Notes under the pieces: model-generated
What the model was told of the DNA's origin: nothing
Databases searched by the model: none
Seen by the model: the letters and a program-made list of their open reading frames with translations, nothing else
IMG/VR virus record: IMGVR_UViG_3300023170_002584
Span: 1 to 64,000 of that record
Reading direction: 5' to 3' (one strand)
Length of the DNA: 64,000 nt
Source of the DNA: a virus
In this document: piece by piece, positions 32,872 to 60,833 of the stretch
Layout: each line of letters starts with the position of its first letter
Numbering within the stretch: position 1 is the first letter of the stretch
Program-made: the position numbers and the translations under genes

Positions 32872-33466
32872 TGCGATTGTCGATCAGTCATCATCTAAAC
32901 TAATAGATGGAGGAAGGAAGAATAACGATGATTTGACTGGACATTATATTAGAAATATAGTAAATAATATATGTTCAAACAAAGGTATAAAGTATCTTGA
33001 GATAGGTTTATATCGTGGCGGGATTTTTTCATCAGCTTTATTTCAAAACAATATTCGTGCAGTGGGTATAGATGATTGGTCACAAAACTGGCATAATGGT
33101 GAATCTAAATTAGCATTTTGGTCTAGGATAGGACCGATTATTGAAACCAATGATGTAAAAATTATCGACAGTGACTGCTGGGTAGAAAACTTACTTGGTG
33201 ATGAAAAATTTAATGTATACACCTTTGATGGACCTCACGGTTGGCAGGATCAATACAATGCTCTAACAAAGTATATACATAACATGGAAGACCAGTTTAT
33301 ATACATAGTCGATGATTATGATAAAGAAAAGTCACCAGAAGTTATTGATGCTGTACAATCATCTATAGTAGACTTAAAATTAAACATCTTGTGTGAATAC
33401 ACCATGCCCGCAGGGGATGGATATCATGAAGGTATTTACTTTTCCTGTTTGGAGAAAACAAAGTGA
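32852..33466 (+). CDS. Class I methyltransferase-like protein
   Basis: A 204-residue protein with the SAM-binding motif YLEIGLYRGGIFSSAL (ExGxxxG) at about 50, an acidic loop GIDDW and a later TFDGPHGW. It looks like the class I fold of O-methyltransferases that act on sugars. Predicted to methylate a glycan; substrate unknown. It overlaps the exostosin gene by 20 bases. Confidence 0.72.
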   Translation: MKKILDNAIVDQSSSKLIDGGRKNNDDLTGHYIRNIVNNICSNKGIKYLEIGLYRGGIFSSALFQNNIRAVGIDDWSQNWHNGESKLAFWSRIGPIIETNDVKIIDSDCWVENLLGDEKFNVYTFDGPHGWQDQYNALTKYIHNMEDQFIYIVDDYDKEKSPEVIDAVQSSIVDLKLNILCEYTMPAGDGYHEGIYFSCLEKTK

Positions 33467-34383: not shown

Positions 34384-34415
34384 CACCAACTTCACGATTA
34401 AAAAAGAGATATAAT

Positions 34416-35069
34416 ATGTTATCTGTAATAATTGTTAGTAGAGATAGGCATGATAGCTTTGATAGATGCCTCACTTCTATAAAGGAATATTTGACAGATG
34501 TTGAAATTTGCGTAGGATATGATTCAGATGATGATAATACTAAAAAAATAGCACTATCTCATAATGCAAATATCTTTGAATTCTCAAGACAAAAGAATAG
34601 ACATTCAGGATACATAAATCCGATAGCAAAAGAATGTAATGGAGATTTTATACTATCATTAAATGATGATGTAGAAGTTGTAGATGCTGGTGATTATCAA
34701 AGTCTTTTACTCAAACATAAACACAAGTTATTTTATGGAATATGTAGTGAAAATTGGGCTATTGGAAATGCTAAAGCTGACTGGGAAGATCATTTAAAAC
34801 ATAGGTTTGCTTGTTACCCTTTAATAAGTAGAATTCTTTTTAATGCTTTAGGTTTTTATATGCCTTCGGAAGTATCTGGTCCGGGTGCTGATATAGCTTT
34901 TTCAAAAATCATATTCAACTCCAACCTAGCTGAGTATGAAGATGTTCCAATATCTATATTTGACTATGGAATGTCTTGTAGCCAAGTAGGCCATTATAAT
35001 AGATATGATAATAGATGTTTGAATCGTGATATAATGAAGATAAATGAATTTATTAATAATATATCTTAG
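34416..35069 (+). CDS. GT2-type glycosyltransferase
   Basis: A 217-residue protein. The GT2 start LSVIIVSRDRHDSFDRCLTS, the acidic segment GYDSDDDN and the metal-binding LSLNDDVEVV are clear. Small and single domain. 32 bases separate it from the previous gene, the largest gap so far in this operon. Confidence 0.85.
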   Translation: MLSVIIVSRDRHDSFDRCLTSIKEYLTDVEICVGYDSDDDNTKKIALSHNANIFEFSRQKNRHSGYINPIAKECNGDFILSLNDDVEVVDAGDYQSLLLKHKHKLFYGICSENWAIGNAKADWEDHLKHRFACYPLISRILFNALGFYMPSEVSGPGADIAFSKIIFNSNLAEYEDVPISIFDYGMSCSQVGHYNRYDNRCLNRDIMKINEFINNIS

Positions 35070-35095
35070 CTCTAATAACAAGCTTGGAGTTTACA

Positions 35096-35596
35096 ATGTC
35101 AACAAAAATAATAACAGAAATCAAACACATAGACAATAGAGGTTCTCTTTACACCACATTTGCAGATTACGATTATGATATTCAGTTTGTTCAAGATAAA
35201 ATATCTCAATCTAGATACGGAACAATTCGTGGATTTCATGGAGATGATAAAACCTATAAATTAGTTACCTGTATTTACGGAATAATGCAGTTTGTGACTT
35301 TTGATATAGAAACAGAAAAAACCACCCGGTATTTACTGGATGCCAATAATAAAGAAGTTGATTCTATTCTTGTTGAACCCGGACAGTTAAATGCTCATCA
35401 ATGTCTATCAGATCAATGTATAATGAGCTATAAATGGAGTGAGTATTATACTTCTCCAAAAGATCAATGGACTGTAAAATACGATGATCCAACTATAGAT
35501 GCTGAATGGTGTGATACTAACTATGTGATTTTGTCTCATAGAGATGCTACGGCACGAGACTTTTTGTCGCAAAAAGAAGAAGGTATATTCTCATGA
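35096..35596 (+). CDS. RmlC-like cupin, dTDP-sugar 3,5-epimerase family
   Basis: A 166-residue cupin. GTIRGFHGDDKTYKLVTCIY matches RGLHYQ...KLV of RmlC, with the catalytic His, and KDQWTVKYDDPTIDAEW matches the C-terminal nDP.i...W block. It should epimerise a nucleotide 4-keto sugar. I start at the ATG at 35096, placed after GGAG; a TTG 12 bases upstream is in frame. Confidence 0.83.
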   Translation: MSTKIITEIKHIDNRGSLYTTFADYDYDIQFVQDKISQSRYGTIRGFHGDDKTYKLVTCIYGIMQFVTFDIETEKTTRYLLDANNKEVDSILVEPGQLNAHQCLSDQCIMSYKWSEYYTSPKDQWTVKYDDPTIDAEWCDTNYVILSHRDATARDFLSQKEEGIFS

Positions 35597-37068
35597 ATTT
35601 ATTGATTGTATGTCCCAGCTCAGCCGGGTTGTATCAAGATCTTAAAACTGACTTTGCTGCTAGAGAACCAAATATTTGGGCGGGACTTTTAGCCAATGCT
35701 GTTAGAAAAGAACATAATGTTCTGATATATGACATGGAGATAACAAGACCTTCTGAGTCTAAATTCATTGATGATGTGGATCAAATTGATCCTGATCTTG
35801 TATTGTTTGTGGTGACGGGGCAAAACCCCAACGCATCCACTGCTGCTATGGAAGGTGCAACCTATGCCTCAAATATTATTGCCCACAGAAAGATTGCTTT
35901 TGTAGGACCGCACGTAAATTCTCTACCTCTAGAGACTCTTGAGAAGCACCCAGAAATAGACATTGCATTTACTAACGAAGGTGTTTATGCTCTTAAGAAT
36001 CTTTTAAAAACAGATCTGAAAGACATCAGCGGGGTTAATGGAATAGCCTATAGAGATAATGGAGAAATAAAACTCAATCCACCAGAAAGAATTGTTCCTC
36101 AAGATCTATTAGAGCAAGACCTTCCCGGCGTAGCTTATGACTTAATGCCATGTCTGGACAACTATAGAACTAGCACTTGGCATACTAACTTTAAAGGTAA
36201 TACATCTCCCTTTGCAAGTATTTATACAAGTTTGGGGTGTTTTGCTAAATGTTCGTTTTGTATGATTAACTCAATCAATCGAACTTCTAATGACTTTAAT
36301 TTAGCTTCTGATTCCTTCAATGTATTCAGATACTGGTCTCCAGAATTTACGATAAAGCAACTGGAGTATCTAGCGGATAAGGGTGTTAAGCATCTTAAGA
36401 TTGCCGACGAAATGTTTGTCTATCGTCCCAAGCATTTCATGACTTTATGTGAATTAATCATTGATCGTGGATTAGATTTTAATATTTGGGCATATAGTAG
36501 AGTAGACACAGCAAAACCTAAATATCTTGAGACCCTTAGAAAAGCAGGCGTTCGTCATTTAGCTTTAGGAATTGAATCTGCCAATCAAACCGTTCGACAA
36601 GAAATTGATAAGGGTAGATTCAAAGAGGTCAACATTAGAGAAGTTGTTGATGAAATTGTAAAACATGATATTGGTGTGGGAGGTAATTTCATTGTTGGAC
36701 TGCCAACAGATAATTATGAAACTATGCAACAAACTATGAATCTTGCGTTTGAACTTGATTTAGCTAATATGAACGTGTATTGTTCTACCGCATTACCCGG
36801 AAGTCCTCTTTATCTCAATGCTAAGAAAGAGGGTAGATATTTGCCAGAAAAGTATAGCGAGTTTGGATTTCTAAGCTATAATCATATACCAGATAGTACT
36901 GAATTTCTCACCTCGGCAGAAGTATTAGCGTTTCGAGATTATTTCTTTGACGCATATTTTACGAATCCGGGTGTGCTGAATAGAATGAGAAATAAATACG
37001 GTGAAGAAGCCTGTAAAAATATCCATAGAATGACCAGTATTAAATTACAAAGAAAGATCCTGCAATGA
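35593..37068 (+). CDS. B12-binding-type radical SAM enzyme
   Basis: A 491-residue protein. Residues 1-140 form a Rossmann domain like the cobalamin-binding domain of class B radical SAM enzymes (NLLIVCPSSAGLYQ, VTGQNPNAS, AFVGPHVNSLPLETLEKHPE), but I do not see the His of a DxHxxG motif, so B12 may not be held by it. The radical SAM core starts at about 210 with YTSLGCFAKCSFCMINS (CxxxCxxC). Possible reactions are C-methylation, ring or epimer change on a sugar or lipid. Confidence 0.87.
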   Translation: MNLLIVCPSSAGLYQDLKTDFAAREPNIWAGLLANAVRKEHNVLIYDMEITRPSESKFIDDVDQIDPDLVLFVVTGQNPNASTAAMEGATYASNIIAHRKIAFVGPHVNSLPLETLEKHPEIDIAFTNEGVYALKNLLKTDLKDISGVNGIAYRDNGEIKLNPPERIVPQDLLEQDLPGVAYDLMPCLDNYRTSTWHTNFKGNTSPFASIYTSLGCFAKCSFCMINSINRTSNDFNLASDSFNVFRYWSPEFTIKQLEYLADKGVKHLKIADEMFVYRPKHFMTLCELIIDRGLDFNIWAYSRVDTAKPKYLETLRKAGVRHLALGIESANQTVRQEIDKGRFKEVNIREVVDEIVKHDIGVGGNFIVGLPTDNYETMQQTMNLAFELDLANMNVYCSTALPGSPLYLNAKKEGRYLPEKYSEFGFLSYNHIPDSTEFLTSAEVLAFRDYFFDAYFTNPGVLNRMRNKYGEEACKNIHRMTSIKLQRKILQ

Positions 37069-37595
37069 GTAACACAACTAAAAAAGCATTAATTTTAACG
37101 TTTGAAAAATTTCAAGATCATGAAGTCATATATCCATTTTATGCTTTACAGGAGCATGGGTATCATGTAGAAGTTTGTGCTAATGGGACAAAGGAAAGAA
37201 TATTCGGTATTTTGGGTGCTCATGTAGTTTCAGACTATACTACAAGTGATTTGCTTGTTTCTGATGTAGAATCTTATGATTTGCTTTGTATTCCCGGAGG
37301 TGTCAAAGCACTTGAGAAGTTACGTCTTGAGCCTAATGCTGTAAATTTCGTTAAGAGGTGGTTTGAGCTTGACAAACCTACGATGTGTATTTGTAATGGA
37401 GGTCAGCTTTTAATAACAGCAGATGTTCTTCGTGATAGAAAATGCTCAGGATATTACTCAATTGAGCCAGACATTCGTAATGCTGGTGCTGAGTATTCAA
37501 GGGGTGTTGTTGAAGACGGTAATCTTGTGTCATGTGCCCACTATGATGATATGGGTGAATGGATGCGAGTAGCAATGGAAAAATTCAATGGTTGA
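37065..37595 (+). CDS. DJ-1/PfpI family protein
   Basis: A 176-residue protein of the DJ-1/PfpI superfamily. KALILTFEKFQDHEVIYPFY gives the early Glu, LLCIPGGVKALEKL the Gly-rich loop, and MCICNGGQLLITADVL the nucleophile Cys elbow. Members are glyoxalases, deglycases or hydrolases; which is not clear. It overlaps the radical SAM gene by four bases. Confidence 0.83.
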   Translation: MSNTTKKALILTFEKFQDHEVIYPFYALQEHGYHVEVCANGTKERIFGILGAHVVSDYTTSDLLVSDVESYDLLCIPGGVKALEKLRLEPNAVNFVKRWFELDKPTMCICNGGQLLITADVLRDRKCSGYYSIEPDIRNAGAEYSRGVVEDGNLVSCAHYDDMGEWMRVAMEKFNG

Positions 37596-38187
37596 ATCTG
37601 TAAAAAAACCTTGGGGTTATGAGTATCTTTTGTATAAGAATGACGATGTCGCTATATGGCACTTGTTTATTAATTCTTATCAAAACACATCTCTGCATAG
37701 CCATCCGAATAAGAAGACTGGTCTTGTTGTTTTAGACGGTGCTGCCAAGGTTTCTTTTCTTGGTAGTGATCACAAGTTGTTTCATGGTGAAAAAATCATG
37801 ATTCGTCATGGTGTGTTTCATCAGACAAAGTCAATGACCCCTCACTTACTACAACTTCTTGAAATAGAAACTCCAGTAGACAAAGAAGATATTGTGAGAC
37901 TAGAGGATTCTTATGGCAGGGCGGGATCTATTAAAATGGGAGAGGAAGGTGTGGATGTAACACCTCTGGATATGAAAGGTGATTTTGTAGGCGTGTCTTA
38001 TGTCTGGTTTGCGGAACTAAATAAAAAACTGGACTTTGATAACTTCATGATAACAAATGGATCTATCTCTTATGAAGGTAATAGTGTCGCTGGACCCGGA
38101 GATATTATTAGCTATGATAACATGAAGCGGTTGCTTGAAAAATTCGAAATCTCTGAGAAAATAGAGGGGTTGGCTATAACATGCTAA
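37588..38187 (+). CDS. Cupin domain protein, sugar-phosphate isomerase-like
   Basis: A 199-residue protein. KKPWGYEYLLYKNDD and NTSLHSHPNKKTGLVVLDGA are the PWG and HxH cupin motifs; the late ligand is in IRHGVFHQTKS. The C-terminal 70 residues are a second, degenerate half. Likely acts on a sugar phosphate or nucleotide sugar. Confidence 0.82.
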   Translation: MVESVKKPWGYEYLLYKNDDVAIWHLFINSYQNTSLHSHPNKKTGLVVLDGAAKVSFLGSDHKLFHGEKIMIRHGVFHQTKSMTPHLLQLLEIETPVDKEDIVRLEDSYGRAGSIKMGEEGVDVTPLDMKGDFVGVSYVWFAELNKKLDFDNFMITNGSISYEGNSVAGPGDIISYDNMKRLLEKFEISEKIEGLAITC

Positions 38188-38975
38188 ATGAAATCATGAA
38201 CAAGGCGAAAATGTGTAGAGCATTTGAGGTTGTCACATTTAGTCAAATACAAGCTGGCAATATTAAAATCCCTGTCTACTTATCCGCTGGTCAAGAAATG
38301 ATCCCGGCGACTATTAGTACATATTTTCAAGATCGAGGAATTACACCCGCTATCTTTGGTCAACATAGAGGTCATTCTACTTATTTGTCATTTGGTGGAG
38401 ATCCTACACAGCTTATTGATGAACTTCTTGGTTTGGAAACTGGATGTGCGAAAGGTATGGGAGGTTCCGCATCTATACATAGTCCAGAAATTAAGATGTT
38501 TGGTCACGATGGGTTGATGGGAAGCAATGTTCCTATTGGAGTTGGGTATTGTTATGCCACCAACGAACCCACAGTTGTATTCGTAGGGGATGCCGCAGGC
38601 GAGGAAGACTATGCTCTAGCCGCATACGGGTGGGCAGCAACAAAAAATCTTCCAATTCTGTTTGTGGTTGAGGACAACAACCTTTCCATTTTAACAGAAA
38701 AGAAAATCAGAAGATCTTGGGATATTTGTAATGTCTCTCAAGCAATGAACGTTGAATCTTATAATATAACTGACAATCCTACAGACATACTTAATTGCCT
38801 CGGTGGATGGGACTTTTCTGCTCCAAAATTACTTAATATCAATACCGTCAGAATGTTTTGGCACGCAGGTGCTGGAACAGATGGTGAAACAAGAGATTTA
38901 TTAAAGCATGAAGATTTATCGGAAGACATTGAAAGGTTTGAAAAACTATGGCAATCACGCTTAGAGACACTATAA
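38181..38975 (+). CDS. Thiamine-diphosphate enzyme, E1-alpha-like subunit
   Basis: A 264-residue protein like the alpha subunit of pyruvate/2-oxo acid dehydrogenase E1. Conserved blocks are YLSAGQEMIPATI, FGQHRGHSTYLSFGGDP, GCAKGMGGSASIHS and the ThDP motif GDAAGEEDYALAAYGWAATK ending VVEDNN (GDx...NN). It is about 60-100 residues shorter than true E1-alpha and there is no E2 or E3 gene nearby. With the next gene it should form an alpha2beta2 carboligase or decarboxylase. Confidence 0.87.
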   Translation: MLNEIMNKAKMCRAFEVVTFSQIQAGNIKIPVYLSAGQEMIPATISTYFQDRGITPAIFGQHRGHSTYLSFGGDPTQLIDELLGLETGCAKGMGGSASIHSPEIKMFGHDGLMGSNVPIGVGYCYATNEPTVVFVGDAAGEEDYALAAYGWAATKNLPILFVVEDNNLSILTEKKIRRSWDICNVSQAMNVESYNITDNPTDILNCLGGWDFSAPKLLNINTVRMFWHAGAGTDGETRDLLKHEDLSEDIERFEKLWQSRLETL

Positions 38976-39856
38976 AAAATACCGTAGCTAATCATCTAGA
39001 CGGTGGAGGTTTGGCTTTTGGTCAGTGTCTAACCGCCGTTGGGTGGGTTGGTGGAACCCTACCTGAAATGTATGAAGAAGATGGTATGGTTGAACTTTCT
39101 ATGGCTGATGTAGCAGGAGGTGCAATTGTTACAGGTGCTGGTCTATCAGGAAGAAGACCTATGTATATCATAAGATATCAAGGTTTTAACTGGTATAATT
39201 GCGTTAGTATATTAAACTATGCCTGTAAAAGTAAGGACATGTGGAATATTCCGTGCCCAATTTTTGTGAGGAGTATTGCTATGGAGGGGGCAATTGGTCC
39301 AGTAGCTGGTAGCTCCCATCATTCTCTTTATCATAGAATGCCCGGTGTTAAAATCTACTCGCCAATGACTCCCGGAGAATACGAGCAATGTTATCAGGAT
39401 TTCATGAAAGATGACGATGTTTTTTATGTTTCTGAACATCGAGGGGCATATAATAATACAGAGGAACTTGAAGATGTAGACTTTTATGAACCTGACTTTG
39501 TATTGTTTCCTATTTCTATTTGCCGATTTGCAGCAATGGAAGCTTCTAGGGAATTATTCAAAGAAGGTATTAAGGTTGCTGTTTATCATCAAAAAGTTTT
39601 AAAGCCATTTGATGTAAATAAGAATTGGGCGAGAGCACTTGATATTGCTGGTCGCGGACTTGTTCTCGATGATGATTTTCCAGATGGAATAGCTTCAACA
39701 CTTGCTCAAAAACTAATGCTAGAATCATCAGCTAAGGTATCAACTATGGGTCTGGAAGAAAGATCTTCAGGATTTGCAAAGCACTTAGACAATCTTCCTC
39801 CATCAAAAGAAAAAATTATAAGGTTTATTAAAAATGAAAAGAATAGAATTCGGTGA
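38948..39856 (+). CDS. Thiamine-diphosphate enzyme, E1-beta/transketolase-C-like subunit
   Basis: A 302-residue partner of the previous gene, which it overlaps by 28 bases. It has ELSMADVAGGAIVTGAGLSG, then GPVAGSSHHSLYHRMPGVKI and YSPMTPGEYEQCY, matching the E1-beta blocks (H-S, PG, PxTP) and the transketolase C-domain at the end. It completes the active site across the dimer interface. Sugar operon context points to two-carbon transfer onto a sugar rather than central metabolism. Confidence 0.87.
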   Translation: MAITLRDTIKNTVANHLDGGGLAFGQCLTAVGWVGGTLPEMYEEDGMVELSMADVAGGAIVTGAGLSGRRPMYIIRYQGFNWYNCVSILNYACKSKDMWNIPCPIFVRSIAMEGAIGPVAGSSHHSLYHRMPGVKIYSPMTPGEYEQCYQDFMKDDDVFYVSEHRGAYNNTEELEDVDFYEPDFVLFPISICRFAAMEASRELFKEGIKVAVYHQKVLKPFDVNKNWARALDIAGRGLVLDDDFPDGIASTLAQKLMLESSAKVSTMGLEERSSGFAKHLDNLPPSKEKIIRFIKNEKNRIR

Positions 39857-40967
39857 ATTGAGAATTAACAATTCGGCAAAAAAGCATGTTCAAGATTGTT
39901 TAGATACTAATTGGGCCTCGATGGGTCCAAAAACTAAACTACTTGAAGAAAAATTTGCTGAATTGATGGGAACAAAATACGCAGTAGCAACAAGTAGCGG
40001 CACTTCGTCAATAGCTGCAATGACTATGGCATTGCCCGAAATATGTAATCGTCCTGTTATTAGGAATAAAAGCAAAGTAATATGTCCAGCTTTAGCCTTT
40101 ATAGCCAATACTACAGGTATTGTGTCTGGTGGATTGATTCCTAAATGGGTGGACATCAAGCCGGAAACTTTAAATATAAATGAGGAATTAATTGAGGATG
40201 CTGTTGATGATGATGTCGTTGCGATCTATGCTGTAGGCACTATGGGTAGGCCATCTGAGATGGATGCGATTAGAACTATTGCTAAAAAATATGACTTAGT
40301 ATTGTTTGAAGACGCATGTGAGAACTATGGTAGTAAAATAAATGGAGAGTTTAGCCATAAGTATGCTATAGGAGGTTGTTCTTCATTTTTTCAGGCTCAT
40401 CTTGTTCAGGCCGGTGAAGGTTCTTGTATTTATACAGATGATGAAAATCTTCGTGATCTGCTCATTAGTATTAGATCTCACGGCAGACATCCTAATTCAG
40501 CGTATTTTGACCATATAAGATTTGGGAGTAATTTTAAAACAACTGACCTTTGTGCATCTTTAGCTCTTGGTGCTATTGAGGAATTTCAACAAAATATTTC
40601 CGAAAGAAAAGCGATATGGACTGAACTTGTAAAGTTTTCTGAACAATATGCAGATTTAGCTTGGTTTAGTAGTCAGCCTGATTATATGGAAGTTATGCCT
40701 CATGGTTTTAGCATTACAGTAAAGCCAGATTCTAAAAAATCATGTAGAGAACTAGAAAAACTGATGACCTCTAATAACATTCACTGGAAAAGAAATTTTG
40801 GTTTTTGTGGCAGTCATGCATCATTAAAAGACGTTTTATCCGAACCACAGGGATATAATAATGCTGTGTGGTGTGGGAACAATGGACTGCATATTGGTAC
40901 TCATAGATATATGAATGAAGAAAACATTCAAAGAATTTGTAGAGTTATGAAGGAATTTTTTGAATGA
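39834..40967 (+). CDS. DegT/DnrJ-fold PLP enzyme with His for catalytic Lys (ColD-like)
   Basis: A 377-residue protein of the nucleotide-sugar aminotransferase fold. TSSGTSSIAAM binds PLP phosphate, LFEDACENYGS holds the PLP-binding Asp, and TMGRPSEMDAI is conserved. At the Lys site it reads SFFQAHLVQAGEG, with His189 where aminotransferases have Lys. The same change defines GDP-4-keto-6-deoxymannose 3-dehydratase (ColD, 388 residues, His188) and RfbH. It therefore probably removes a 3-hydroxyl rather than adding an amine. Length fits ColD, not the Fe-S enzyme RfbH. Confidence 0.85.
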   Translation: MKRIEFGELRINNSAKKHVQDCLDTNWASMGPKTKLLEEKFAELMGTKYAVATSSGTSSIAAMTMALPEICNRPVIRNKSKVICPALAFIANTTGIVSGGLIPKWVDIKPETLNINEELIEDAVDDDVVAIYAVGTMGRPSEMDAIRTIAKKYDLVLFEDACENYGSKINGEFSHKYAIGGCSSFFQAHLVQAGEGSCIYTDDENLRDLLISIRSHGRHPNSAYFDHIRFGSNFKTTDLCASLALGAIEEFQQNISERKAIWTELVKFSEQYADLAWFSSQPDYMEVMPHGFSITVKPDSKKSCRELEKLMTSNNIHWKRNFGFCGSHASLKDVLSEPQGYNNAVWCGNNGLHIGTHRYMNEENIQRICRVMKEFFE

Positions 40968-41479
40968 AATTTTTTTTAATAGCGAGTGAACTTGAGCTAC
41001 CAAATTGTCCGTCTATAGTCGAAGACAGTGTTATTTTTACAGGAATTGGCAAAACGAACGCCGCTATGTGGGCTACTAAACTATGCACTCAATGGGGTAA
41101 TAATCTTGATTTGATTGTTAATGTAGGAACCGCTGGAAGTTTTAATGAGGCTTATTCTGGAATGCATAAGTGCGGTACTTTTGTAAATCTAGATGGAGAT
41201 GATTCATTTAATAATGAAAGATATGTCTTTAATAAAGATGGTTTAACTATTGGTTCATCTGATTCTTTTGTTGATAATGAAAATCTATATTTAGATAAAC
41301 CCGATCTCGTAGATATGGAGAGTTTTGCTATTGCTCATGTCTGTCATAATTTTGGTGTTAATTTTGTTTGTCATAAATATATTACAGATTATATTGGCTC
41401 CAATTCTGTCAATCAATGGCTTGAGTCTGTGAAAAAAGCAGAATGTGAAATATTTAAAATTATCTATTCTTATATCTAA
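40964..41479 (+). CDS. MTA/SAH nucleosidase-like protein
   Basis: A 171-residue protein of the nucleoside phosphorylase/nucleosidase superfamily. It has IFTGIGKTNAAMWATKL, VNVGTAGSF and LVDMESFAIAHVCHNF, the ribose-binding Met-Glu patch, plus the late Asp in HKYITDYIG. Shorter than E. coli MTAN (232). It could clear methylthioadenosine, SAH or 5'-deoxyadenosine made by the methyltransferase and radical SAM enzyme of this operon. Confidence 0.82.
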   Translation: MKFFLIASELELPNCPSIVEDSVIFTGIGKTNAAMWATKLCTQWGNNLDLIVNVGTAGSFNEAYSGMHKCGTFVNLDGDDSFNNERYVFNKDGLTIGSSDSFVDNENLYLDKPDLVDMESFAIAHVCHNFGVNFVCHKYITDYIGSNSVNQWLESVKKAECEIFKIIYSYI

Positions 41480-41509
41480 TTTTTTTACATGCAATAATAG
41501 AGAACTAAT

Positions 41510-42466
41510 ATGAAAATAGTTATTACTGGTGCCGCTGGATATATTGGAAGTAAATTATTCGATTTTTTAGTAAAACGCGGTCACAATGTTATAGGTTTTG
41601 ATAATCTTTTTTATGATCAGGGGACGCTTGTTAGTAAAGTGGCGTGCAATTCTATTGGTGTATCAAAATTTTTTGTTGAAGACGTTACCAGTTGGTCTGA
41701 AAATTTAAAAGATGCTATAAAAAATGCAGATATTATTATTCCACTTGCCGCACTGGTTGGTGCTCCGCTATGTGACAAATATCCAGAGCTAACATATAAA
41801 ATCAACTTTGAATGGTTTTCTAAACTATTGCCGTATCTTAAAGATCAACATATAATTTATCCAAATACAAACTCTGGTTATGGCTCAACCGGCGAAGAAA
41901 TTTGTACAGAAGAAACTCCATCTAATCCCTTATCACTTTACGCAAAAACAAAACAAGATTCTGAAAATTTATTGATGACTTATGAAAAGTCTACCTGTTT
42001 TCGTTTAGCTACAGTATTTGGATGGTCTTATCGCCCCAGAACGGATCTTCTTGTTAATAATTTAACTAAAACAGCATTAGAAACTGGAAGAATATTCTTG
42101 TTTGATGGTCACTTCAGGAGAAACTATATTCATGTAGATGACATAGTTTCAGCTTTTAACTTTATTATTGATAAAATAACATATAAAAAGAGTGAAGACA
42201 TACATGGAGTTTTTAATTTAGGAAATGATTCTTTAAATACAACTAAAGAAAATTTAGTTAAGGAAATATGTTCAATTGTTGGCTCAGATTTTGTAACTCA
42301 AGATAATCGTACCGATCCAGATAAAAGAGATTATTTAGTTAGTAGCCAAAAGCTGTACTCTTTAGGATGGAAACCATCAGTTAGTTTGAGGTTTGGCGTT
42401 AATCAAATGGTCAACTTTTATAGATTAATGTCAAAGTCTGACGAACTTCGTTGTAGAAATTATTGA
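41510..42466 (+). CDS. NAD-dependent epimerase/dehydratase (extended SDR)
   Basis: A 318-residue SDR. The NAD motif is VITGAAGYIGSKLFDFLVKR, the active site is SLYAKTKQDSE (YxxxK), and IHVDDIVSAFNFI is the sugar-enzyme mid block. It should act on a nucleotide sugar (4,6-dehydratase, C4 or heptose epimerase). It is preceded by 30 bases with AGAGAAC, a new ribosome site in the operon. Confidence 0.88.
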   Translation: MKIVITGAAGYIGSKLFDFLVKRGHNVIGFDNLFYDQGTLVSKVACNSIGVSKFFVEDVTSWSENLKDAIKNADIIIPLAALVGAPLCDKYPELTYKINFEWFSKLLPYLKDQHIIYPNTNSGYGSTGEEICTEETPSNPLSLYAKTKQDSENLLMTYEKSTCFRLATVFGWSYRPRTDLLVNNLTKTALETGRIFLFDGHFRRNYIHVDDIVSAFNFIIDKITYKKSEDIHGVFNLGNDSLNTTKENLVKEICSIVGSDFVTQDNRTDPDKRDYLVSSQKLYSLGWKPSVSLRFGVNQMVNFYRLMSKSDELRCRNY

Positions 42467-42468
42467 TT

Positions 42469-43437
42469 ATGATTATCAGTAGAACGCCTTTTAGAATATC
42501 TTTATTTGGAGGATCTACCGATTATGAATCGTATTTCTCTAAGCACGAATCCTTATTAATCGGATTCGCTATTAATAAATACTGCTACCTTTCTGTAAGA
42601 AAAACTCCATCCATATTTGATTACAAAAGTAAATTATCATATTCAAAAACTGAAATTGTAAATAATAATTCAAAAATCAACCATGACGGAGTTAGGGGCT
42701 GTCTAGACTTTTTATCTATCAGATATGGCATAGAGCTATCTCATAATGCGGATCTTCCGGCTCAAACTGGAACTGGATCTTCGTCTGCATTTGTTGTTGG
42801 CTTATTAAACTGCTTGCATAGACTGAGTAATAAATATGTCACTAAAAAAGAACTATCCCAACAAGCAATAAATGTTGAACGGAATATACTGATGGAGACT
42901 GGAGGTATTCAGGATCAAATTTGGTCTGCATATGGAGGTATTAACTCAATATCTATTGAAAAAAATGGCTTTTTTCATGTCAAGCCATTGCCTATCTGTG
43001 AGCATTTTTTGAAAAATTTCTTAGAAAGATCAATCCTAATTTATACGGGCAGCACAAGGCATTCTTTTAAAATTGCTAAATCTTACAATATTAATTCTTC
43101 CCAAGAGCATAAGCACAAGATTAAAGAATTATCACATTTGGCTTATGAACAATTTCAAGAGGCTAACATTGAAAATATTGCATCGCTCCTCGACAAATCT
43201 TGGAACTATAAAAAACAGATATCTAACTTAATAAGTAATGACCGCATAAACAATTTTTATTCACAGTTATCGGAAGATGGTATGATTGGCGGAAAATTAT
43301 TAGGATCTGGCGGTGCAGGTTTCATATTTGGCATATTATCTGATAAAGTGAATAAGAAAGAGTTTAGGAGAAAATATAAACAAAATTACGTGGATTTTAA
43401 CATTGACTTTGAAGGATCTAAAATTATAAATGAGTAA
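42469..43437 (+). CDS. GHMP kinase, heptose-7-phosphate kinase (HddA)-like
   Basis: A 322-residue GHMP kinase. IISRTPFRISLFGGSTDYES matches HddA/FKP-type kinases (RxPxRixfaGGgTD); the ATP loop is LPAQTGTGSSSAFVVG, and GGKLLGSGGAGFIFG is motif 3. It would phosphorylate C1 of a heptose 7-phosphate or a related sugar. The ATG at 42469 is two bases after the previous stop; an upstream TTG is unlikely. Confidence 0.86.
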   Translation: MIISRTPFRISLFGGSTDYESYFSKHESLLIGFAINKYCYLSVRKTPSIFDYKSKLSYSKTEIVNNNSKINHDGVRGCLDFLSIRYGIELSHNADLPAQTGTGSSSAFVVGLLNCLHRLSNKYVTKKELSQQAINVERNILMETGGIQDQIWSAYGGINSISIEKNGFFHVKPLPICEHFLKNFLERSILIYTGSTRHSFKIAKSYNINSSQEHKHKIKELSHLAYEQFQEANIENIASLLDKSWNYKKQISNLISNDRINNFYSQLSEDGMIGGKLLGSGGAGFIFGILSDKVNKKEFRRKYKQNYVDFNIDFEGSKIINE

Positions 43438-43807
43438 TACAGAAACACAAGAAAGAATTAGAAGAAAAACTATTTTTTTAGATATTGATGGAACTCTTGT
43501 CATTCATAAGAAAAATTTATGCAGAATGATAACTGAGCAACTAGAAGTTATTTATGGAGTGCATGAAAAATTTTTAGAATGGCGTGCTAAAGACTATTAT
43601 ATCGTACTTACTACCGCTAGACCTGAAGGTGTTAGAAGCTCGCTAGAGCGTCAGTTAAGCGAAGCCGGTATATTTTATGATCAGCTAGTCATGGGACTTC
43701 CTGTTGGTCCGAGAGTTCTTGTGAATGATAAAAAGCCTGACGGCACAATAACAGCATATGCTTATCCAATAGAAAGAGACTTGGGAATATCTGGAGTAGA
43801 AGTTTAA
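43430..43807 (+). CDS. HAD-family phosphatase
   Basis: A 125-residue HAD hydrolase. Motif I is KTIFLDIDGTLVIH with both Asp residues, motif II is YIVLTTARPEG and motif III/IV is in RVLVNDKKPDG. It lacks a cap domain. In the sugar operon, between kinase and nucleotidyltransferase, it is well placed to act as the sugar bisphosphate phosphatase (GmhB role). Confidence 0.83.
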   Translation: MSNTETQERIRRKTIFLDIDGTLVIHKKNLCRMITEQLEVIYGVHEKFLEWRAKDYYIVLTTARPEGVRSSLERQLSEAGIFYDQLVMGLPVGPRVLVNDKKPDGTITAYAYPIERDLGISGVEV

Positions 43808-44259
43808 TGTACAGAATTGGTATAGTTTCTGGATATTTTAATCCGCTACATCGTGGTCATTTAGAATATATTAATGCCGCCAAAAAACAGTGTGATTTTT
43901 TAAATTGTATTGTAAATAATGATCTTCAAGTGCAGATAAAAGGCTCTAATAAATTTATGGACGAGAATCATAGATATGATATTATGAAAAATATAAAATC
44001 TATTGATGCAGTATATGTGTCGATTGACAAGGATCGCTCCGTTTCGAATACTATTGCTAAAATAGTAGAAGAAACAATTTTTGAATACAACAAGAATTAT
44101 AAGTTTATGTTCTTTAATAGCGGAGATAGACCGCCAGACAATTACAATATCCAAGAAAAAACCGTCTGCGACAAATTAGATGTGCAGACGGTATTTATTC
44201 CATTGAAGAAAGTTCATTCTTCATCCAGTTTTTTAGCTACTCTCGGTCATGTTTCATGA
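43807..44259 (+). CDS. Nucleotidyltransferase, HldE-C/cytidylyltransferase family
   Basis: A 150-residue enzyme with the HxGH motif in GYFNPLHRGHLEYINAAKKQ, then CIVNNDLQVQIKG and ENHRYDIMKNIKSIDAVYVS, like the adenylyltransferase half of HldE and glycerol-3-phosphate cytidylyltransferase. It lacks the usual ISTT-type end; SSSSFLATL may replace it. It would activate a sugar phosphate as ADP- or CDP-sugar. Last gene of the operon; its end overlaps the convergent gene by 23 bases. Confidence 0.86.
   Translation: MYRIGIVSGYFNPLHRGHLEYINAAKKQCDFLNCIVNNDLQVQIKGSNKFMDENHRYDIMKNIKSIDAVYVSIDKDRSVSNTIAKIVEETIFEYNKNYKFMFFNSGDRPPDNYNIQEKTVCDKLDVQTVFIPLKKVHSSSSFLATLGHVS
44154..44192 (-). terminator. Intrinsic terminator of the leftward operon, inside the convergent gene
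   Basis: ACCGTCTGC at 44161-44169 pairs with GCAGACGGT at 44184-44192, a perfect nine-pair stem. Read leftward it is followed by TTTTTT (44161-44156). It ends the operon that comes from the right, although it lies within the coding sequence of the rightward nucleotidyltransferase gene. Confidence 0.8.
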
Positions 44260-45156: not shown

Positions 45157-46428
45157 CTAAGCAATAATGTCTTTAATAACTTCAGCAAAGTCAACAATCT
45201 CAATTGGTCTATCACCCGGAGCCATTAATTCCTTGTCTGGATTAATTCCCATTTGATGATAGATAGTGCCTGCCCAATGAGGAATTTCTACAGGATTTTG
45301 ATCTGGTTCAGATCCTGTAGCATCAGATGTTCCATAAGTAATTCCACCCTTGATTCCGCCACCAGCTAATACAGAGCTAAATACTCGCGGCCAATGGTCT
45401 CTTCCTGATGTATTGTTAATCTTAGGTGTTCTACCAAATTCAGAAACAACACAAACTAAAGTAGAGTCAAGCAATCCTCTTTCTGATAGATCAGAAATTA
45501 GGGCAGCAAAACCCTGATCGAACGCTGGCATTTGACTATTAATTCCATTGGCGATATTATCGTGCATATCCCATCCGCCATAAGTCATCGTGACAAATCT
45601 TGCTCCAGCTTCTACGAGTCTGCGTGATAGCAACATGCGTGCTCCAGCAGTGTTCTTACCATATCTCTCTCTGACTTCAGGAGATTCTTTTTCTAATTTA
45701 AAGGCTTCCTGTGCTTCTGTGCTAGAGATAAGATCATAGGCTTTATCATAAAATGTATTCATAGCCTTGACATTATCTGCATCTTTAGCTTTTTCTATGA
45801 AACTTTTATTTACAAGATCTAACGTGCTACGTCGTCTTGCAAATCTTGCCTGACCAATTTCGCTTGCCAAGTCTCTAACCTTAAAGTCATCTCTTGCTGG
45901 ATCAGAGCCTAAGCTAAATGGTCCATAAGAACTGCTAAGATATCCAGTTCCAGCAAATTCATTAGGCAGATTAGGAATGCAGATATAAGCCGGAAGGTTA
46001 TTTCTAGAACCAAACTCATGAGTCACCACAGCCCCTATAGACGGATAGTTTAGTGCTGGGCTTGGTCTATAACCAGTAAAGACATTATGCGTTCCTCGCT
46101 CGTGTGCGGCCTCTCCATGAGTCATACTACGTATGATTGTTAGCTTATCGGCAACGCCAGCGGTCTTAACTAACTTCTCATTAAGAAAAGTTCCAGCAAC
46201 ATTAGTTTGAATACTTGCCATTTGGCCTCTATATTCAACAGGTGCTAGTGGCTTAGGGTCAAAACTCTCCTGTGCAGCCATACCTCCGGGAAGGTAAATA
46301 AAGATTACGCTCTTAGCTGGACCTTCTACGCTTTCAAAGTTTTTAATATCCCCAAATAACTTTGGAGCCATAAAACTAAGTAATCCAGCCTTAAATAAAC
46401 TACGTCTTCCAATATGAGCATTAAACAT
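45157..46428 (-). CDS. DUF1501 family protein with Tat signal (copy 1)
   Basis: A 423-residue protein. The N-terminus has a twin-arginine signal, GRRSLFKAGLLSFMAP, so it should be exported folded. The DUF1501 core (alkaline-phosphatase/sulfatase-like superfamily) shows FIYLPGGMAAQESFDPKPLA, TYGGWDMHDN and SEFGRTPKINN followed by GRDHWP. DUF1501 proteins abound in Planctomycetes and have no established function. It ends nine bases before copy 2 begins its own gene in the same direction; good GGAG start. Confidence 0.92.
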   Translation of the reverse strand: MFNAHIGRRSLFKAGLLSFMAPKLFGDIKNFESVEGPAKSVIFIYLPGGMAAQESFDPKPLAPVEYRGQMASIQTNVAGTFLNEKLVKTAGVADKLTIIRSMTHGEAAHERGTHNVFTGYRPSPALNYPSIGAVVTHEFGSRNNLPAYICIPNLPNEFAGTGYLSSSYGPFSLGSDPARDDFKVRDLASEIGQARFARRRSTLDLVNKSFIEKAKDADNVKAMNTFYDKAYDLISSTEAQEAFKLEKESPEVRERYGKNTAGARMLLSRRLVEAGARFVTMTYGGWDMHDNIANGINSQMPAFDQGFAALISDLSERGLLDSTLVCVVSEFGRTPKINNTSGRDHWPRVFSSVLAGGGIKGGITYGTSDATGSEPDQNPVEIPHWAGTIYHQMGINPDKELMAPGDRPIEIVDFAEVIKDIIA

Positions 46429-46436
46429 AAAATCTC

Positions 46437-47690
46437 CTACGATAAAATGATTTTAGCTTCGCCATCAAGTAAATATCTTGGACGACCAGCCATATCAAAT
46501 CGCTGCTGCCTTCCATCAATTAACATGTGGTCAAAAATTGTAGCCTGTAAATCTAACGGTCCAAACTTATCACTCTTAGGTACATATGATCTATCGGCTT
46601 CGCCAATAGTTCTTCCTGATTGGTATTTGCCTCCAGCCATCATTAACGGAGTAATAGAAGGCCAATGGTCACGACCTGCTGTTGCATTGATCTTAGTTCT
46701 TCCAAATTCTCCAGTAACAACAACTAATACCTCTTCATTAATTCCACGATCCCACAAATCTTGTAAAAGACCAGAGATTGCTTTATCAATTGGAGGTACT
46801 CTCTTTTTAATGCCATCTGAGATATTGTTATGCATATCCCATCCGCCATAGTGTATTGTAACAAACTTGGTTCCATTTTCAACTAATCTTCTGGCTAAAA
46901 TCATTTGTTCGCCAATATCATTAGCTTTTTCTGAACCATAGATTTTCCTAGTGTCATCAGATTCTTGCTTGAGATCAAATGCATCTTTTGCAGATCCTAA
47001 TATAACATTATAGGCTTGATCTTTATAAAATCCAACAGATTTTGCTGATCTACTATTGATTTTTTGACCAAGACTGTCAATGCTATTTAGAAGTTCTCGT
47101 CTATTATTAAATCTCTCCATCTCAATTCTTGGAGAGAGATTATCCTTTGCTGATGGATCAAAAGGCTTATAAGCTCCACCAAGCCATGCTGGATCTTCAC
47201 CATCAATTTTGCCTTGTTTCACATAACATGGCATACCATTGGCGGGATGATTAGCTCCGTAAATAGCAGAAACTAATGATCCAAATGAAGGCATTTTAGA
47301 TATAGCGGTTTGTGTTCTTTCTTTATTATAATGTCCAGTCATCATAAAGTGAGTAGCCTGTAGATGAGCAGAGTCTCCATGACTAAATGAATTGACGACA
47401 TTCAACTTACTTGTATGTTTAGCAAGTTCTGTCCAGTTGGCACCAAGATTAATGTTAGTTGATGCACAATAATTAGATCCATCAACAGGTCGCCATTCGG
47501 CAGGAACTGTATCTGTTGGTGCATGGAATGTTTCAAATTGTGCTGGGCCTCCACCAAGCCATATCCAGATCACTGACTTACTATTTGTATCCTGATGAAA
47601 GGCTGCGTCTGTAAATCCAGCTATTGACATTGCTGTACTTATAGATCCAATCTTTAAGAAAGATCTTCTGCCAAAATCAAATGTTATCAT
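46437..47690 (-). CDS. DUF1501 family protein with Tat signal (copy 2)
   Basis: A 417-residue paralogue. The Tat motif is ideal (GRRSFLKIGSIST). Core motifs are WIWLGGGPAQFETFHAPTD, IHYGGWDMHNN and GEFGRTKINATAGRDHWPS. Compared with copies 1 and 3 it lacks the Pro in FGRTP. The two adjacent copies are diverged, so they are not a recent duplication. It overlaps the small lipoprotein-like gene upstream by 14 bases. Confidence 0.92.
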   Translation of the reverse strand: MITFDFGRRSFLKIGSISTAMSIAGFTDAAFHQDTNSKSVIWIWLGGGPAQFETFHAPTDTVPAEWRPVDGSNYCASTNINLGANWTELAKHTSKLNVVNSFSHGDSAHLQATHFMMTGHYNKERTQTAISKMPSFGSLVSAIYGANHPANGMPCYVKQGKIDGEDPAWLGGAYKPFDPSAKDNLSPRIEMERFNNRRELLNSIDSLGQKINSRSAKSVGFYKDQAYNVILGSAKDAFDLKQESDDTRKIYGSEKANDIGEQMILARRLVENGTKFVTIHYGGWDMHNNISDGIKKRVPPIDKAISGLLQDLWDRGINEEVLVVVTGEFGRTKINATAGRDHWPSITPLMMAGGKYQSGRTIGEADRSYVPKSDKFGPLDLQATIFDHMLIDGRQQRFDMAGRPRYLLDGEAKIILS

Positions 47691-48629: not shown

Positions 48630-49131
48630 CTTTATCTCCATCCATATCCCTAACGAATAAAACATACTTTTTAGGTATGTAGACTATAGATATTTTATCC
48701 TTGATTAGCCTTAAAATCTGCGAATAATTTTCAGAATAGATATCCATTTTAGGATTTGATGCATCTGTGAATTTGATTTCACTTATTCCGCATTGATATA
48801 TCATTTGCAGACAGTCAAGACATGGTATTGCTGTTATATATGCTGTAGCTCCTAGAGTACTTCTACCAAGTCTTGAACAATTGTAAATAGCATTAGCCTC
48901 TGCGTGAATCATGAAAGGATATTTTTGAGGTCTAACCCTTGGTAGTATAGTATCATCAATATCCCTGATGAATCCATTATATCCTGTAGATAATGAAGTT
49001 TTATCTTTTACAAGGACGCATCCACATTTAGTTTGACTATCATGACTGTTAAAACTCCAAAGAATTGCTTCTCTGAAGAAAATTTTATCCCACTTAGTTG
49101 CTTCCTTTTGGATTTTAATATATTCTTCCAT
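48607..49131 (-). CDS. dCMP deaminase family protein
   Basis: A 174-residue zinc deaminase that would convert dCMP to dUMP for ThyX. The zinc site is IHAEANAIYNCSR (HAE) and AIPCLDCLQMI (PCxxC). CGCVLVKD and STGYNGF are the usual N-terminal blocks. I start at the ATG at 49131 after GGAG; upstream codons to 49218 run into the tmRNA gene and are rejected. Confidence 0.88.
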   Translation of the reverse strand: MEEYIKIQKEATKWDKIFFREAILWSFNSHDSQTKCGCVLVKDKTSLSTGYNGFIRDIDDTILPRVRPQKYPFMIHAEANAIYNCSRLGRSTLGATAYITAIPCLDCLQMIYQCGISEIKFTDASNPKMDIYSENYSQILRLIKDKISIVYIPKKYVLFVRDMDGDKDVQDQQR

Positions 49132-49153
49132 AGCTATAATCTCCAGTGAAAGG

Positions 49154-49186
49154 AAAAAATGCCCGTTTGGATAGCAAGGGCGGGCA
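49154..49186 (-). terminator. Terminator after the tmRNA
   Basis: Minus strand TGCCCG (49186-49181) pairs with CGGGCA (49165-49160) and is followed by TTTTTT. It marks the 3' end of the permuted tmRNA transcript. Confidence 0.75.
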
Positions 49187-49201
49187 ACCCCCCGTGACTG
49201 C

Positions 49202-49231
49202 CTAAGCAGCCAACGCAAAACTAGGTTTTGC
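49202..49231 (-). other. tmRNA tag-peptide reading frame
   Basis: Resume codon GCA at 49231-49229 is followed by codons for KPSFALAA and a TAG stop at 49204-49202. The ALAA ending is the standard proteolysis signal. The first 17 bases form a self-complementary GCAAAA...TTTTGC hairpin. Confidence 0.88.
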
Positions 49232-49322
49232 AGTTATTGTCTGTCGATTTTTTAGCTGGCCCTTCGACAAACCAGCACATGCAGTCATCACCTACGCAAC
49301 CAGTCGATACCATTACGCCCCC

Positions 49323-49442
49323 GTCAGAAACACACTATCTTACCGTCATAAGTAGTCCGTCAACTAGATGCTTTGAGTACGTGGTTACATCTAGGAGGAT
49401 TTGAACCTCACATAGACCGTATTCAACATCCTAGTGTGCTTC
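49323..49442 (-). other. Spacer between the two tmRNA pieces
   Basis: 120 bases that must be cut out. The ends, 49432-49442 and 49327-49337, pair over 11 positions with one G-U, bringing the CCA end next to the 5' end. Inside are an eight-pair hairpin (49364-49394) and a T-arm-like GAGG-TTCAAAT-CCTC. Confidence 0.75.
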
Positions 49443-49524
49443 TGGTGGAGGCGGCGAGAATCGAACTCGCGTCCTGTGTTGTTTCACTAACAACGTCTAC
49501 ATGTTTATTCCGGCGAACCGGAAG

Positions 49525-49596
49525 CTCCGAAAATAGGACTCGAACCTATAACCCATCGGTTAACAGCCGATTGCTCTACCATTGAGCTATTTCGGA
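49525..49596 (-). tRNA. tRNA-Asn (GTT)
   Basis: A full cloverleaf: acceptor TCCGAAA/TTTCGGA, D-arm GCTC/GAGC, anticodon arm ATCGG-CTGTTAA-CCGAT and T-arm ATAGG/CCTAT. CCA is not encoded. It abuts the tmRNA acceptor piece with no spacer. Confidence 0.95.
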
Positions 49597-49597
49597 T

Positions 49598-49678
49598 TAC
49601 CGGAGACAGGACTTGAACCTGCACGCCTTGCGGCACTAGATCCTAAATCTAGCGTGTCTGCCATTTCACCACTCCGGC
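49598..49678 (-). tRNA. tRNA-Leu (TAG)
   Basis: Acceptor GCCGGAG/CTCCGGT, anticodon arm CTAGA-TTTAGGA-TCTAG, long variable arm (GCCGCAAGGC) of class II, T-loop TTCAAGT. CCA not encoded. Confidence 0.95.
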
Positions 49679-49684
49679 ATTACA

Positions 49685-49756
49685 TTACCTCGCAGGGACT
49701 TGAACCCCAACTAGCAGAACCAAAATCTGCTGTGCTACCGATTACACCACAAGGTA
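49685..49756 (-). tRNA. tRNA-Gln (TTG)
   Basis: Acceptor TACCTTG/CGAGGTA (one G-U), anticodon arm GCAGA-TTTTGGT-TCTGC, T-arm GGGG-TTCAAGT-CCC. CCA not encoded. First gene of the first tRNA cluster. Confidence 0.95.
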
Positions 49757-59454: not shown

Positions 59455-59610
59455 TCAAGATCCTTTGCTGATTTCATACCAAATGAAGCCAAAATTGGCA
59501 ACCGCATAAGACGAGAATATCAGTCCATGCGGATAGTCCTTTTTCATAAAGAAAGATATACCAGTTATCAGATAACATATAGTTGGAACAACTAAAGATA
59601 TTAGAGTCAT
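59455..59610 (-). CDS. Small membrane protein
   Basis: A 51-residue protein with two hydrophobic stretches (LISLVVPTICYLITGISFFM; GLIFSSYAVANFGFIWYEI) separated by KKDYPH. It starts as ATGA on the DUF1501 stop with GAGGG upstream, so it is coupled to that gene and may be its membrane partner. Confidence 0.72.
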   Translation of the reverse strand: MTLISLVVPTICYLITGISFFMKKDYPHGLIFSSYAVANFGFIWYEISKGS

Positions 59611-60833
59611 ACTAATCCCTCAATTATTTTTCCGCTATTTGCGATCTTCATAGGTCTTCCTCTTTTACTTGTATAGATAGTATTAACATCAATACCAAGT
59701 GCTGCAACTGTACTAGCCATGAGATCTTCTGCGGTATACGCTAGACCATCAATCATCTTTCCATCCTCAGTTGTTGCACCAATAGCTCGACCGCCTTTGA
59801 ATAGACCTCCAGATACGAATGCACTCCATGTCGCTGCCCAATGGTCACGACCAGCATTCTGATTAATTCGCGGAGTTCTACCAAACTCTCCCATCATTAC
59901 TATAGCAGTTGTATCCCACATGTCAAGCCTCTTTAGGTCAAGAATAAGGGTTGATACTACTTTATCTAATTCGGGAAGTTTAGTACTAAGGGTATCATGA
60001 GTTGTTTGATGAAGATCCCATCCTCCAAATCCAATCTCAACAAATGGAACTCCTTGCTGTAGAAGACGACGAGCGATCAATGCACTGTTGCCAAAACCAG
60101 TAGTTCCATATGCGTTTCTTACTTCTTGAGGCTCCATATTAACTTTCAACGCATTCATTTGCGGGGAAGTATTTAGTTTAATGGTTTTCTCGTAAAGTTT
60201 CTTATGGTCTGTAGGAAGTTCTCCACGATTAGAATCAATAAAATCTTTCTCTAAAGTAGAAAGGAACTCTAGACGACCTCTGCTTAGATTTCCTCCCAAA
60301 TTATTAATTTGACCATTAGCATTTACTACAAAAGGATTGTAAGCAGTTCCTAAGAATCCGCCTCCAACACTTCCTGTGCCTACAGAAAAGAATGCCGGAA
60401 TCTCAAGATCTTCCCTGTTTCTGCCAAGTTCATAAGATACTACAGATCCCAAAGATGGATGAGCAACTGTAGAACTAGGCTTAAATCCTGTATGCATATA
60501 GTATGTCCCTCGCATATGGTCAGCTTCACGAGTGGACATACTTCTTACAACAGAGAAATCTTTTCCAAGTTTTGCCAGTTCGGGCATGAGTTCACTAATC
60601 TGGAAATCCCCTGCTGTATTGATCGGCATATGAGGACCGCCTTCTTTAGTTCCGGGTTTCAAATCCCACATGTCAATAGTTGGTGGACCGCCTCCCAGCC
60701 AAATCAAAATCGCTCCCTTACGGTCATTACGAAGTTGAGATGAGTTTTGAATAATGGTTTGACCAAAGGAAAGCGATGTGGAAGCAAGAGAAGCAAGTCC
60801 ACCAACATGTTGTAAAAAGTGTCGTCTATTCAT
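59607..60833 (-). CDS. DUF1501 family protein with Tat signal (copy 3)
   Basis: A 408-residue paralogue of the pair at 45-47.7 kb. Tat signal MNRRHFLQHVGGLASLASTS ends in SFG-QT. Core motifs: LIWLGGGPPTIDMWDLKPGT, GFGGWDLHQT and GEFGRTPRIN with GRDHWA. Its start overlaps a 23-codon mini-gene as ATGA, and a 51-residue membrane gene is coupled at its end. It sits at the edge of the small-gene array, next to a 56-base duplication. Confidence 0.92.
   Translation of the reverse strand: MNRRHFLQHVGGLASLASTSLSFGQTIIQNSSQLRNDRKGAILIWLGGGPPTIDMWDLKPGTKEGGPHMPINTAGDFQISELMPELAKLGKDFSVVRSMSTREADHMRGTYYMHTGFKPSSTVAHPSLGSVVSYELGRNREDLEIPAFFSVGTGSVGGGFLGTAYNPFVVNANGQINNLGGNLSRGRLEFLSTLEKDFIDSNRGELPTDHKKLYEKTIKLNTSPQMNALKVNMEPQEVRNAYGTTGFGNSALIARRLLQQGVPFVEIGFGGWDLHQTTHDTLSTKLPELDKVVSTLILDLKRLDMWDTTAIVMMGEFGRTPRINQNAGRDHWAATWSAFVSGGLFKGGRAIGATTEDGKMIDGLAYTAEDLMASTVAALGIDVNTIYTSKRGRPMKIANSGKIIEGLV

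Follow-up and report, generated by a model that had tools for sequence, protein, structure and literature searches.

The minus strand of the window, a 64,000-nucleotide stretch of phage DNA (the source virus record has 65,052 bases in total), carries at about 49154-49523 a circularly permuted, two-piece tmRNA gene. We propose, with a probability of roughly 70%, that a standard planctomycete-type tmRNA was permuted within this phage group and that the product works as a two-piece rescuer with a separate origin. An independent permutation inside viruses is suggested because sister phages keep the normal order and because the parts of the gene are planctomycete-like. It would then represent a fourth, independent origin of two-piece tmRNA in phages of planctomycete-like hosts, recent enough that sisters keep the unpermuted gene, which we consider probable, if slightly less so.

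The Rfam tmRNA_permuted model (RF04321) aligns over its whole length (positions 1-213 of 213) with 49202-49504 on the minus strand, at 87.6 bits (cut-off 47, E 2e-15). The alpha_tmRNA model matches 49197-49523 with 60.9 bits (cut-off 50), and ARAGORN calls a permuted tmRNA at 49111-49535 with the tag AKPSFALAA. The initial annotation, made from the sequence alone, had described a permuted tmRNA with its acceptor half before its coding half and had proposed a check by Infernal with Rfam models; both models scored above cut-off, and the ARAGORN call agrees. Its placement at 49187-49524 found the right locus, but the strand is minus and the high end lies at about 49523, and its low end leaves out the T-run and the larger part of pseudoknot 2, the gene reaching down to about 49161-49154.

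In the order of transcription, tRNA-Gln, tRNA-Leu and tRNA-Asn (49524-49756, minus strand, ARAGORN) are followed with no gap by the acceptor piece, CCA, an intervening sequence and the coding piece, and the tRNA cluster and the tmRNA probably form one transcript. All features below lie on the minus strand. The acceptor piece (49446-49523, from the RF04321 alignment and the sequence) would start at 49523, because tRNA-Asn ends at 49524/49525. It comprises a 5' hairpin (49523-49508) and the 3' strand of helix P2, ACATGTA (49504-49498), both read by eye, then the T arm, the acceptor 3' strand CGCCTCC and the discriminator A at 49446. An encoded CCA (49443-49445) and 120 nt of intervening sequence (49323-49442), presumably removed, separate it from the coding piece, which extends from G1 to the putative 3' end at the close of pseudoknot 2 (49161-49322). 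Pseudoknot 1 (49242-49276), based on covariation in 13 genes, pairs GCTGG (49276-49272) with CCAGC (49259-49255) in S1 and TGTCGA (49269-49264) with TCGACA (49247-49242) in S2. The tag frame, AKPSFALAA plus a TAG stop, occupies 49202-49231 (from ARAGORN and the coordinates), and its ending is, by sequence, of the degradation-signal type. In pseudoknot 2 (49161-49193), S2 pairs GCCCG (49185-49181) with CGGGC (49165-49161) and is supported by covariation in 16 genes; S1, read by eye and outside the counts, would pair a G run (49193-49188) with TCC. A possible terminator, ATTTTTT (49154-49160), follows on the 3' side; a terminator scan restricted to loops of at most 8 nucleotides did not find this T-run. 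As read from the sequence, the window gene has no pseudoknots beyond pseudoknot 2. The two pieces meet in an acceptor stem, GGGGGCG/CGCCTCC, with seven of seven pairs, G3:U70 and discriminator A. The hallmarks named in the initial annotation (acceptor pairing, G3:U70, CCA and the AKPSFALAA frame) are all present.

Scans of viral contigs and related records gave a sample of 13 distinct permuted genes from one phage group. Kept out of the alignments were L002, L003 and L005, which have the same RF04321 match as the window and look like its own virus, as well as L106 (identical to L118), the near-copies L113 and L119, and the fragment L121. We judge the window tmRNA to be more than a chance arrangement, since the same pieces recur, with compensatory changes, in distinct relatives. 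An assembly artefact was also considered and rejected, the permuted order recurring on many contigs of differing sequence. The acceptor stem has seven of seven standard pairs and G3:U70 in all 13 genes; nine share one and the same stem, and in L258-L261 the changes at positions 4-7 are compensated between the pieces. For pairs picked after viewing the alignments, leaving out the outer pairs of pseudoknot 1 stem 2 and all of pseudoknot 2 stem 1, 95.7% of cells are paired in pseudoknot 1 (nine pairs, 13 genes), with double changes in eight of the nine pairs and a covariation of 0.641, against 0.212 in shuffled alignments and at most 0.094 in slid controls; further pair types amount to 9, no more than in shuffles (9.3). 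For pseudoknot 2 S2, pairs chosen in the same way across 16 genes (the 13 plus three standard phage genes) give 96.7% paired cells, double changes in six of six pairs and a covariation of 0.681 versus 0.186 when shuffled. Helix P2 was assigned by eye and stands outside the covariation counts. The anatomy of the gene and the conservation and covariation of its acceptor stem and pseudoknots are thus direct observations of this analysis.

The tag is nine residues long in all 13 permuted genes: AKPSFALAA, GVENYAMAA (twice), AEPCLALAA, AEPCFALAA, ADESLALAA, VEKNFALAA (twice), ANESLALAA, ANRNVALAA, AERNFALAV, ATRNYALSA and ANRNVSLAA. The last four residues are ALAA in eight cases, AMAA in two, and ALAV, ALSA and SLAA in one each. 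Two of these genes (L260 and L261) had no ARAGORN call; Infernal scores them at 75.3 and 68.9, and their tags were located in frame by eye. A search of phage DNA with the window tmRNA matched 1328 records, in each case over less than 80% of the query; among the 20 matches listed, 19 fall only in the first 79 bases, at the tRNA-Asn end, and the remaining one consists of two pieces joined within bases 12-158. The tmRNA of L118 gave short matches in four phage records. A homologue of a deaminase-like neighbour gene is present on the same stretch in nine of nine relatives (L111-L117, L119 and L120) and in the contig VFHP01000007.1 (hereafter C7), and was not found within the stretch of L118. One of these stretches, L111, also has a manA RNA motif (RF01745, 59.5 bits) at 1452-1629.

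Counted from the discriminator, with CCA included, the intervening sequence of the window measures 123 nt. Nine of the 13 permuted genes have 12-16 nt at this place; the other long ones are those of L115 (70 nt), L261 (83 nt) and L260 (89 nt), and CCA is encoded in only two of the 13, the window and L260. The window's sequence folds at -47.3 kcal/mol (z -3.71), and a context fold gives a long helix, GAAGCACACTA/TAGTGTGTTTC, adjoining the acceptor stem. Within this helix, a T-arm-like hairpin and an acceptor-like pairing occur in swapped order (49323-49442). A tRNA inside the intervening sequence, for which the T-arm-like GAGGTTCAAATCCTC and the swapped CTAGATG/CATCTAG pairing could speak, was discarded, Rfam giving no match at E values up to 5; PMC11915505 describes one permuted tmRNA whose intervening sequence contains an intact tRNA-Ala. 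By BLAST against the compared loci, only copies of the same virus match the window's intervening sequence. This, together with its unusual length, could suggest a decaying remnant of a permuted tmRNA, a reading that we find hardly credible, given that the acceptor stem and both pseudoknots are intact, the tag frame is open, relatives show compensatory changes and the intervening sequence is unchanged in three further contigs (copies of the window's virus). A short intervening sequence was dropped as a hallmark of this phage group: the Synechococcus phage Sf-FS3 (PV340856.1, L177 1440-1767) has one of 5 nt, in a cyano-type permuted tmRNA (143.3 bits with cyano_tmRNA) that is absent from the record's annotation.

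Window proteins match rIIA, rIIB, UvsX-like recombinase, DnaB-like helicase, PhoH-like and DNA polymerase families, in keeping with the phage genome initially proposed. At 3551-7653, two ORFs on either side of an exonuclease-like one seem to be the parts of a split DNA polymerase III alpha-like protein (by eye; 5815-7653 scanned), and a block of plus-strand ORFs at 30093-44259 resembles, again by eye, sugar and surface-polysaccharide enzymes. Three window proteins match DUF1501 far above cut-off; DUF1501 proteins lie within 45157-47690 and 59607-60833, and two have 70% identical homologues in C7. When genome contigs were searched with one of these DUF1501 proteins (80 of 95 relatives kept), the top two were C7 and VFHP01000013.1 (C13), both from a SAR202 assembly, and the next came mostly from planctomycetes and Verrucomicrobiota. 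Of 87 ORFs of the window with 100 codons or more, some of them surely spurious, 36 are matched within the first 60 kb of C7 and 25 within the first 60 kb of C13; because they share so many window ORFs, we take both contigs as related phages binned with the SAR202 assembly.

The coding pieces of these genes resemble those of planctomycetes. A profile of the 13 coding pieces scores 30.0-69.8 bits on 11 of 12 planctomycete standard tmRNAs (the twelfth, G316, has 2.6), 42.7-64.1 bits on three standard phage tmRNAs, 17.4 on the SAR202 gene and 10.6 on the standard consensus. On 11 permuted references, which are phage-contig copies (alpha, beta, cyano and unassigned) and Rfam consensus lines rather than cellular genes, it reaches at most 11.8 bits, two of them giving no match. 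The coding piece is accordingly unlike the alpha type (the alpha consensus scores 6.9 bits, aL150 10.9), the cyano type (2.0 and 4.8 on two cyano references) and the beta type (4.1 and 11.8 on two beta references). For the alpha type, the scores of the alpha_tmRNA model itself speak against this: 60.9 bits on the window, and just above cut-off in four of the loci of 11 relatives. A covariance model of the same 13 coding pieces, R1, used with filters that varied among searches, detects 203 of 343 Planctomycetota genomes (E up to 0.001) with a best score of 87.2 bits, 24 of 245 SAR202-class genomes (best 49.6, excluding phage contigs C7 and C13) and 10 of 10 Verrucomicrobiota/Kiritimatiellia-type genomes (best 72.9). 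It scores 83.5, 81.2 and 57.5 bits on the standard phage genes and 22.5 bits at best on eight loci with other permuted tmRNAs. The 5' domain, pseudoknot 1 and tag are by R1 of planctomycete type, but R1 also rises to 72.9 bits in Verrucomicrobiota-type genomes; standard planctomycete tmRNA tags have nine residues in eight of nine loci. The planctomycete one-piece order, with pseudoknots after pseudoknot 2, is not found here, the pieces being permuted.

Above cut-off, we found a single permuted tmRNA in 392 Planctomycetota genomes, on contig L150, and a single one in 294 SAR202-class genomes, on phage contig C7. L150 (G502:C27) is probably misbinned in its planctomycete genome; its tmRNA reaches 78.0 bits with alpha_tmRNA, its tag reads ANESYALAA and its ORFs look T4-like, both by eye, and a search of phage DNA with L150 gave no match. 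SAR202 was examined as a host and set aside: R1 gives no more than 36.2 bits on the tmRNA that belongs to the assembly itself (C14, tag GENKLALAA), and binning alone is a weak argument. The three DUF1501 proteins and the planctomycete-type coding piece uphold the link to planctomycetes drawn in the initial annotation, and from these sequence likenesses the host is likely to be a planctomycete or a related bacterium.

Could the gene instead descend from a known permuted lineage, most plausibly the cyanobacterial one by way of cyanophages, with the planctomycete-type pseudoknot 1 and the tag gained by recombination? A comparison by segments of 11 of the 13 genes (L115, L120, hG309, hG316 and aL013 being left out) bears on this question. 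Pseudoknot 1 has a mean z of 7.0 towards planctomycetes and 4.5 towards standard phage genes, against at most 1.8 for the permuted reference groups, and the acceptor piece has 9.7 towards standard phage genes and 8.1 towards planctomycetes, against at most 5.1; aL007, one of the permuted references, scores 27.2 with the acceptor profile, above several planctomycetes (range 18.6-31.9). The 5' domain gives no clear separation of the groups (standard phage 6.1, cyano 5.3, planctomycetes 4.2). A cyanobacterial descent is favoured by pseudoknot 2, with 4.2 for standard phage genes, 3.7 for cyano and 0.3 for planctomycetes; it resembles the cyano consensus and that of Sf-FS3. However, standard phage genes carry the same kind of pseudoknot 2, so that no cyanobacterial donor is needed, and for both the acceptor piece and pseudoknot 1 the cyano genes are more distant than the standard phage and planctomycete ones. 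By eye, 12 of the 13 permuted acceptor pieces carry the P2-strand motif CATGTAG of the standard consensus, which all 11 permuted references lack. A union of these genes with the cyano type is not rejected by AU tests (p 0.411 and 0.335), and neither is one with the alpha (0.109) or beta (0.123) type. Taken together, a descent from a known permuted lineage seems unlikely to us.

Both gene forms occur in this phage group, which supports a permutation within it. A search with the DnaB-like helicase matched at least 599 stretches, of which 80 were kept; 35 lie on records of at least 15 kb, and 32 records were searched once three of the window's own virus had been removed. Four of these have an RF04321 match and two an RF00023 match above cut-off, none having both, and the other 26, many of them fragments, have neither form above cut-off. 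L184 has a DnaB identical to that of the window, yet its record shows neither form above cut-off. The two standard genes are those of L262, which has no ARAGORN call, and L263, for which ARAGORN reports a tag longer than the AEKQFALAA read by eye. A third standard phage gene, in C13, has the tag AEKNFALAA, close to the VEKNFALAA of the permuted gene in L116. By eye, the standard phage genes have the same parts as the permuted ones, arranged in normal order, and in the permuted L259, a TGACTC...GGATAG stretch after pseudoknot 2 resembles the standard phage genes and may be a remnant.

Two tmRNA trees were built from short alignments of 156 and 163 columns, the second without aL150, aL007, xL009, xL010, L115, hG309 and aL013. 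Both trees unite the permuted and the standard phage genes in one group, at 94/93 in the first, with the long branch aL007 inside, and at 94/98 (not starred) in the second. Within it, the permuted phage genes form a clade of their own in only 44% and 22% of bootstraps. Forcing all permuted genes into one clade is 22.8 and 11.2 log units worse, and is not rejected by the AU test (p 0.081 and 0.286); these short trees thus favour a separate origin, with a single origin of all permuted genes not rejected. In the DnaB tree (59 of the 80 loci; L201, with two stops, left out), a single clade of the permuted phages is rejected (p 0.0002), which places them in more than one lineage. Since the tmRNA trees do not separate the two forms, this suggests that the tmRNA was exchanged, replaced or permuted more than once.

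The direction from standard to permuted may be deduced from the standard form of planctomycetes and the missing later pseudoknots. The ancestor would have been a standard tmRNA of planctomycete type already present in these phages, and the simplest route to permutation would be a tandem duplication followed by loss of the outer parts, leaving a coding piece that stops after pseudoknot 2, with the later pseudoknots gone. The RNA would be transcribed behind the tRNA cluster and excised by tRNA-processing enzymes, with the acceptor stem and helix P2 joining its two pieces. Presumably charged with alanine, it may then use host SmpB and ribosomes, rescuing stalled ribosomes and adding AKPSFALAA. 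The initial annotation offered two candidate roles, a substitute for host trans-translation and an altered proteolysis of phage products. SmpB was not found in seven of seven virus records, which may be incomplete and four of which represent the window's virus; host SmpB is therefore probably needed. The same result would fit a decoy that titrates SmpB or blocks the host tmRNA, in the manner of the CDS-less RNA of phage DS6A, for which PMC11915505 and PMC4131195 report the form itself and describe that it, or a molecule like it, inhibits tmRNA. We regard a decoy as quite improbable, as all 13 genes of the sample keep an open tag frame, mostly with ALAA-type ends, which would be superfluous for this purpose. 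In L004 (7502-7617), RF00023 matches 116 nt over the whole model at 70.0 bits, with no tmRNA called there by ARAGORN; this may be a phage tmRNA of the CDS-less DS6A kind.

Two-piece tmRNAs are described in alpha- and betaproteobacteria, cyanobacteria and mitochondria (PMC3985003), and RF04321 is a merger of the alpha, beta and cyano families (PMC11915505). For phages, three papers give ssrA-bearing phages (PMC4131195), a list of 79 phage tmRNAs (PMC11915505), and 402 phages with tmRNA, of which 133 are distinct and 53 of these are called two-piece (PMC9004378). A permuted phage tmRNA is thus not new by itself, such genes being already in print, and the novelty claimed at first has to be narrowed. 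In a literature search covering few subscription papers, we found neither a permuted tmRNA of planctomycete phages nor a fourth origin; the supplement of PMC11915505 may list permuted genes in further phyla. A phage group with both forms of apparently one gene would make it possible to test in which order the steps of a gene permutation took place and, if our reading is right, to compare these steps directly between sister phages. It also points to phages as carriers of host-like ribosome-rescue RNAs that have their own tags.

How does this gene compare with known systems? With RF04321 two-piece tmRNAs, it shares the order of the pieces, the acceptor stem with G3:U70, the T arm, the tag frame and two pairable pieces, but the coding piece is here of planctomycete type, 12-16 nt separate the pieces in nine of 13 genes and CCA is not encoded in 11 of 13. 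Standard planctomycete tmRNAs (G642, G310, L154) have the same pseudoknot 1, nine-residue tags such as ADENLALAA and a similar acceptor region, but are in one piece and in normal order, with further pseudoknots and another pseudoknot 2. Cyanobacterial genes (RF01851, Sf-FS3) have a similar pseudoknot 2 and, in Sf-FS3, a short intervening sequence, and differ in lacking a planctomycete-type pseudoknot 1, in the longer tag of Sf-FS3 and in the P2 strand. The two-piece tmRNAs of Melnitz-type marine phages are likewise phage-encoded and permuted; they are reported, in PMC9004378, as kin of alphaproteobacterial genes, whereas the genes described here are of planctomycete type and belong to another phage group.
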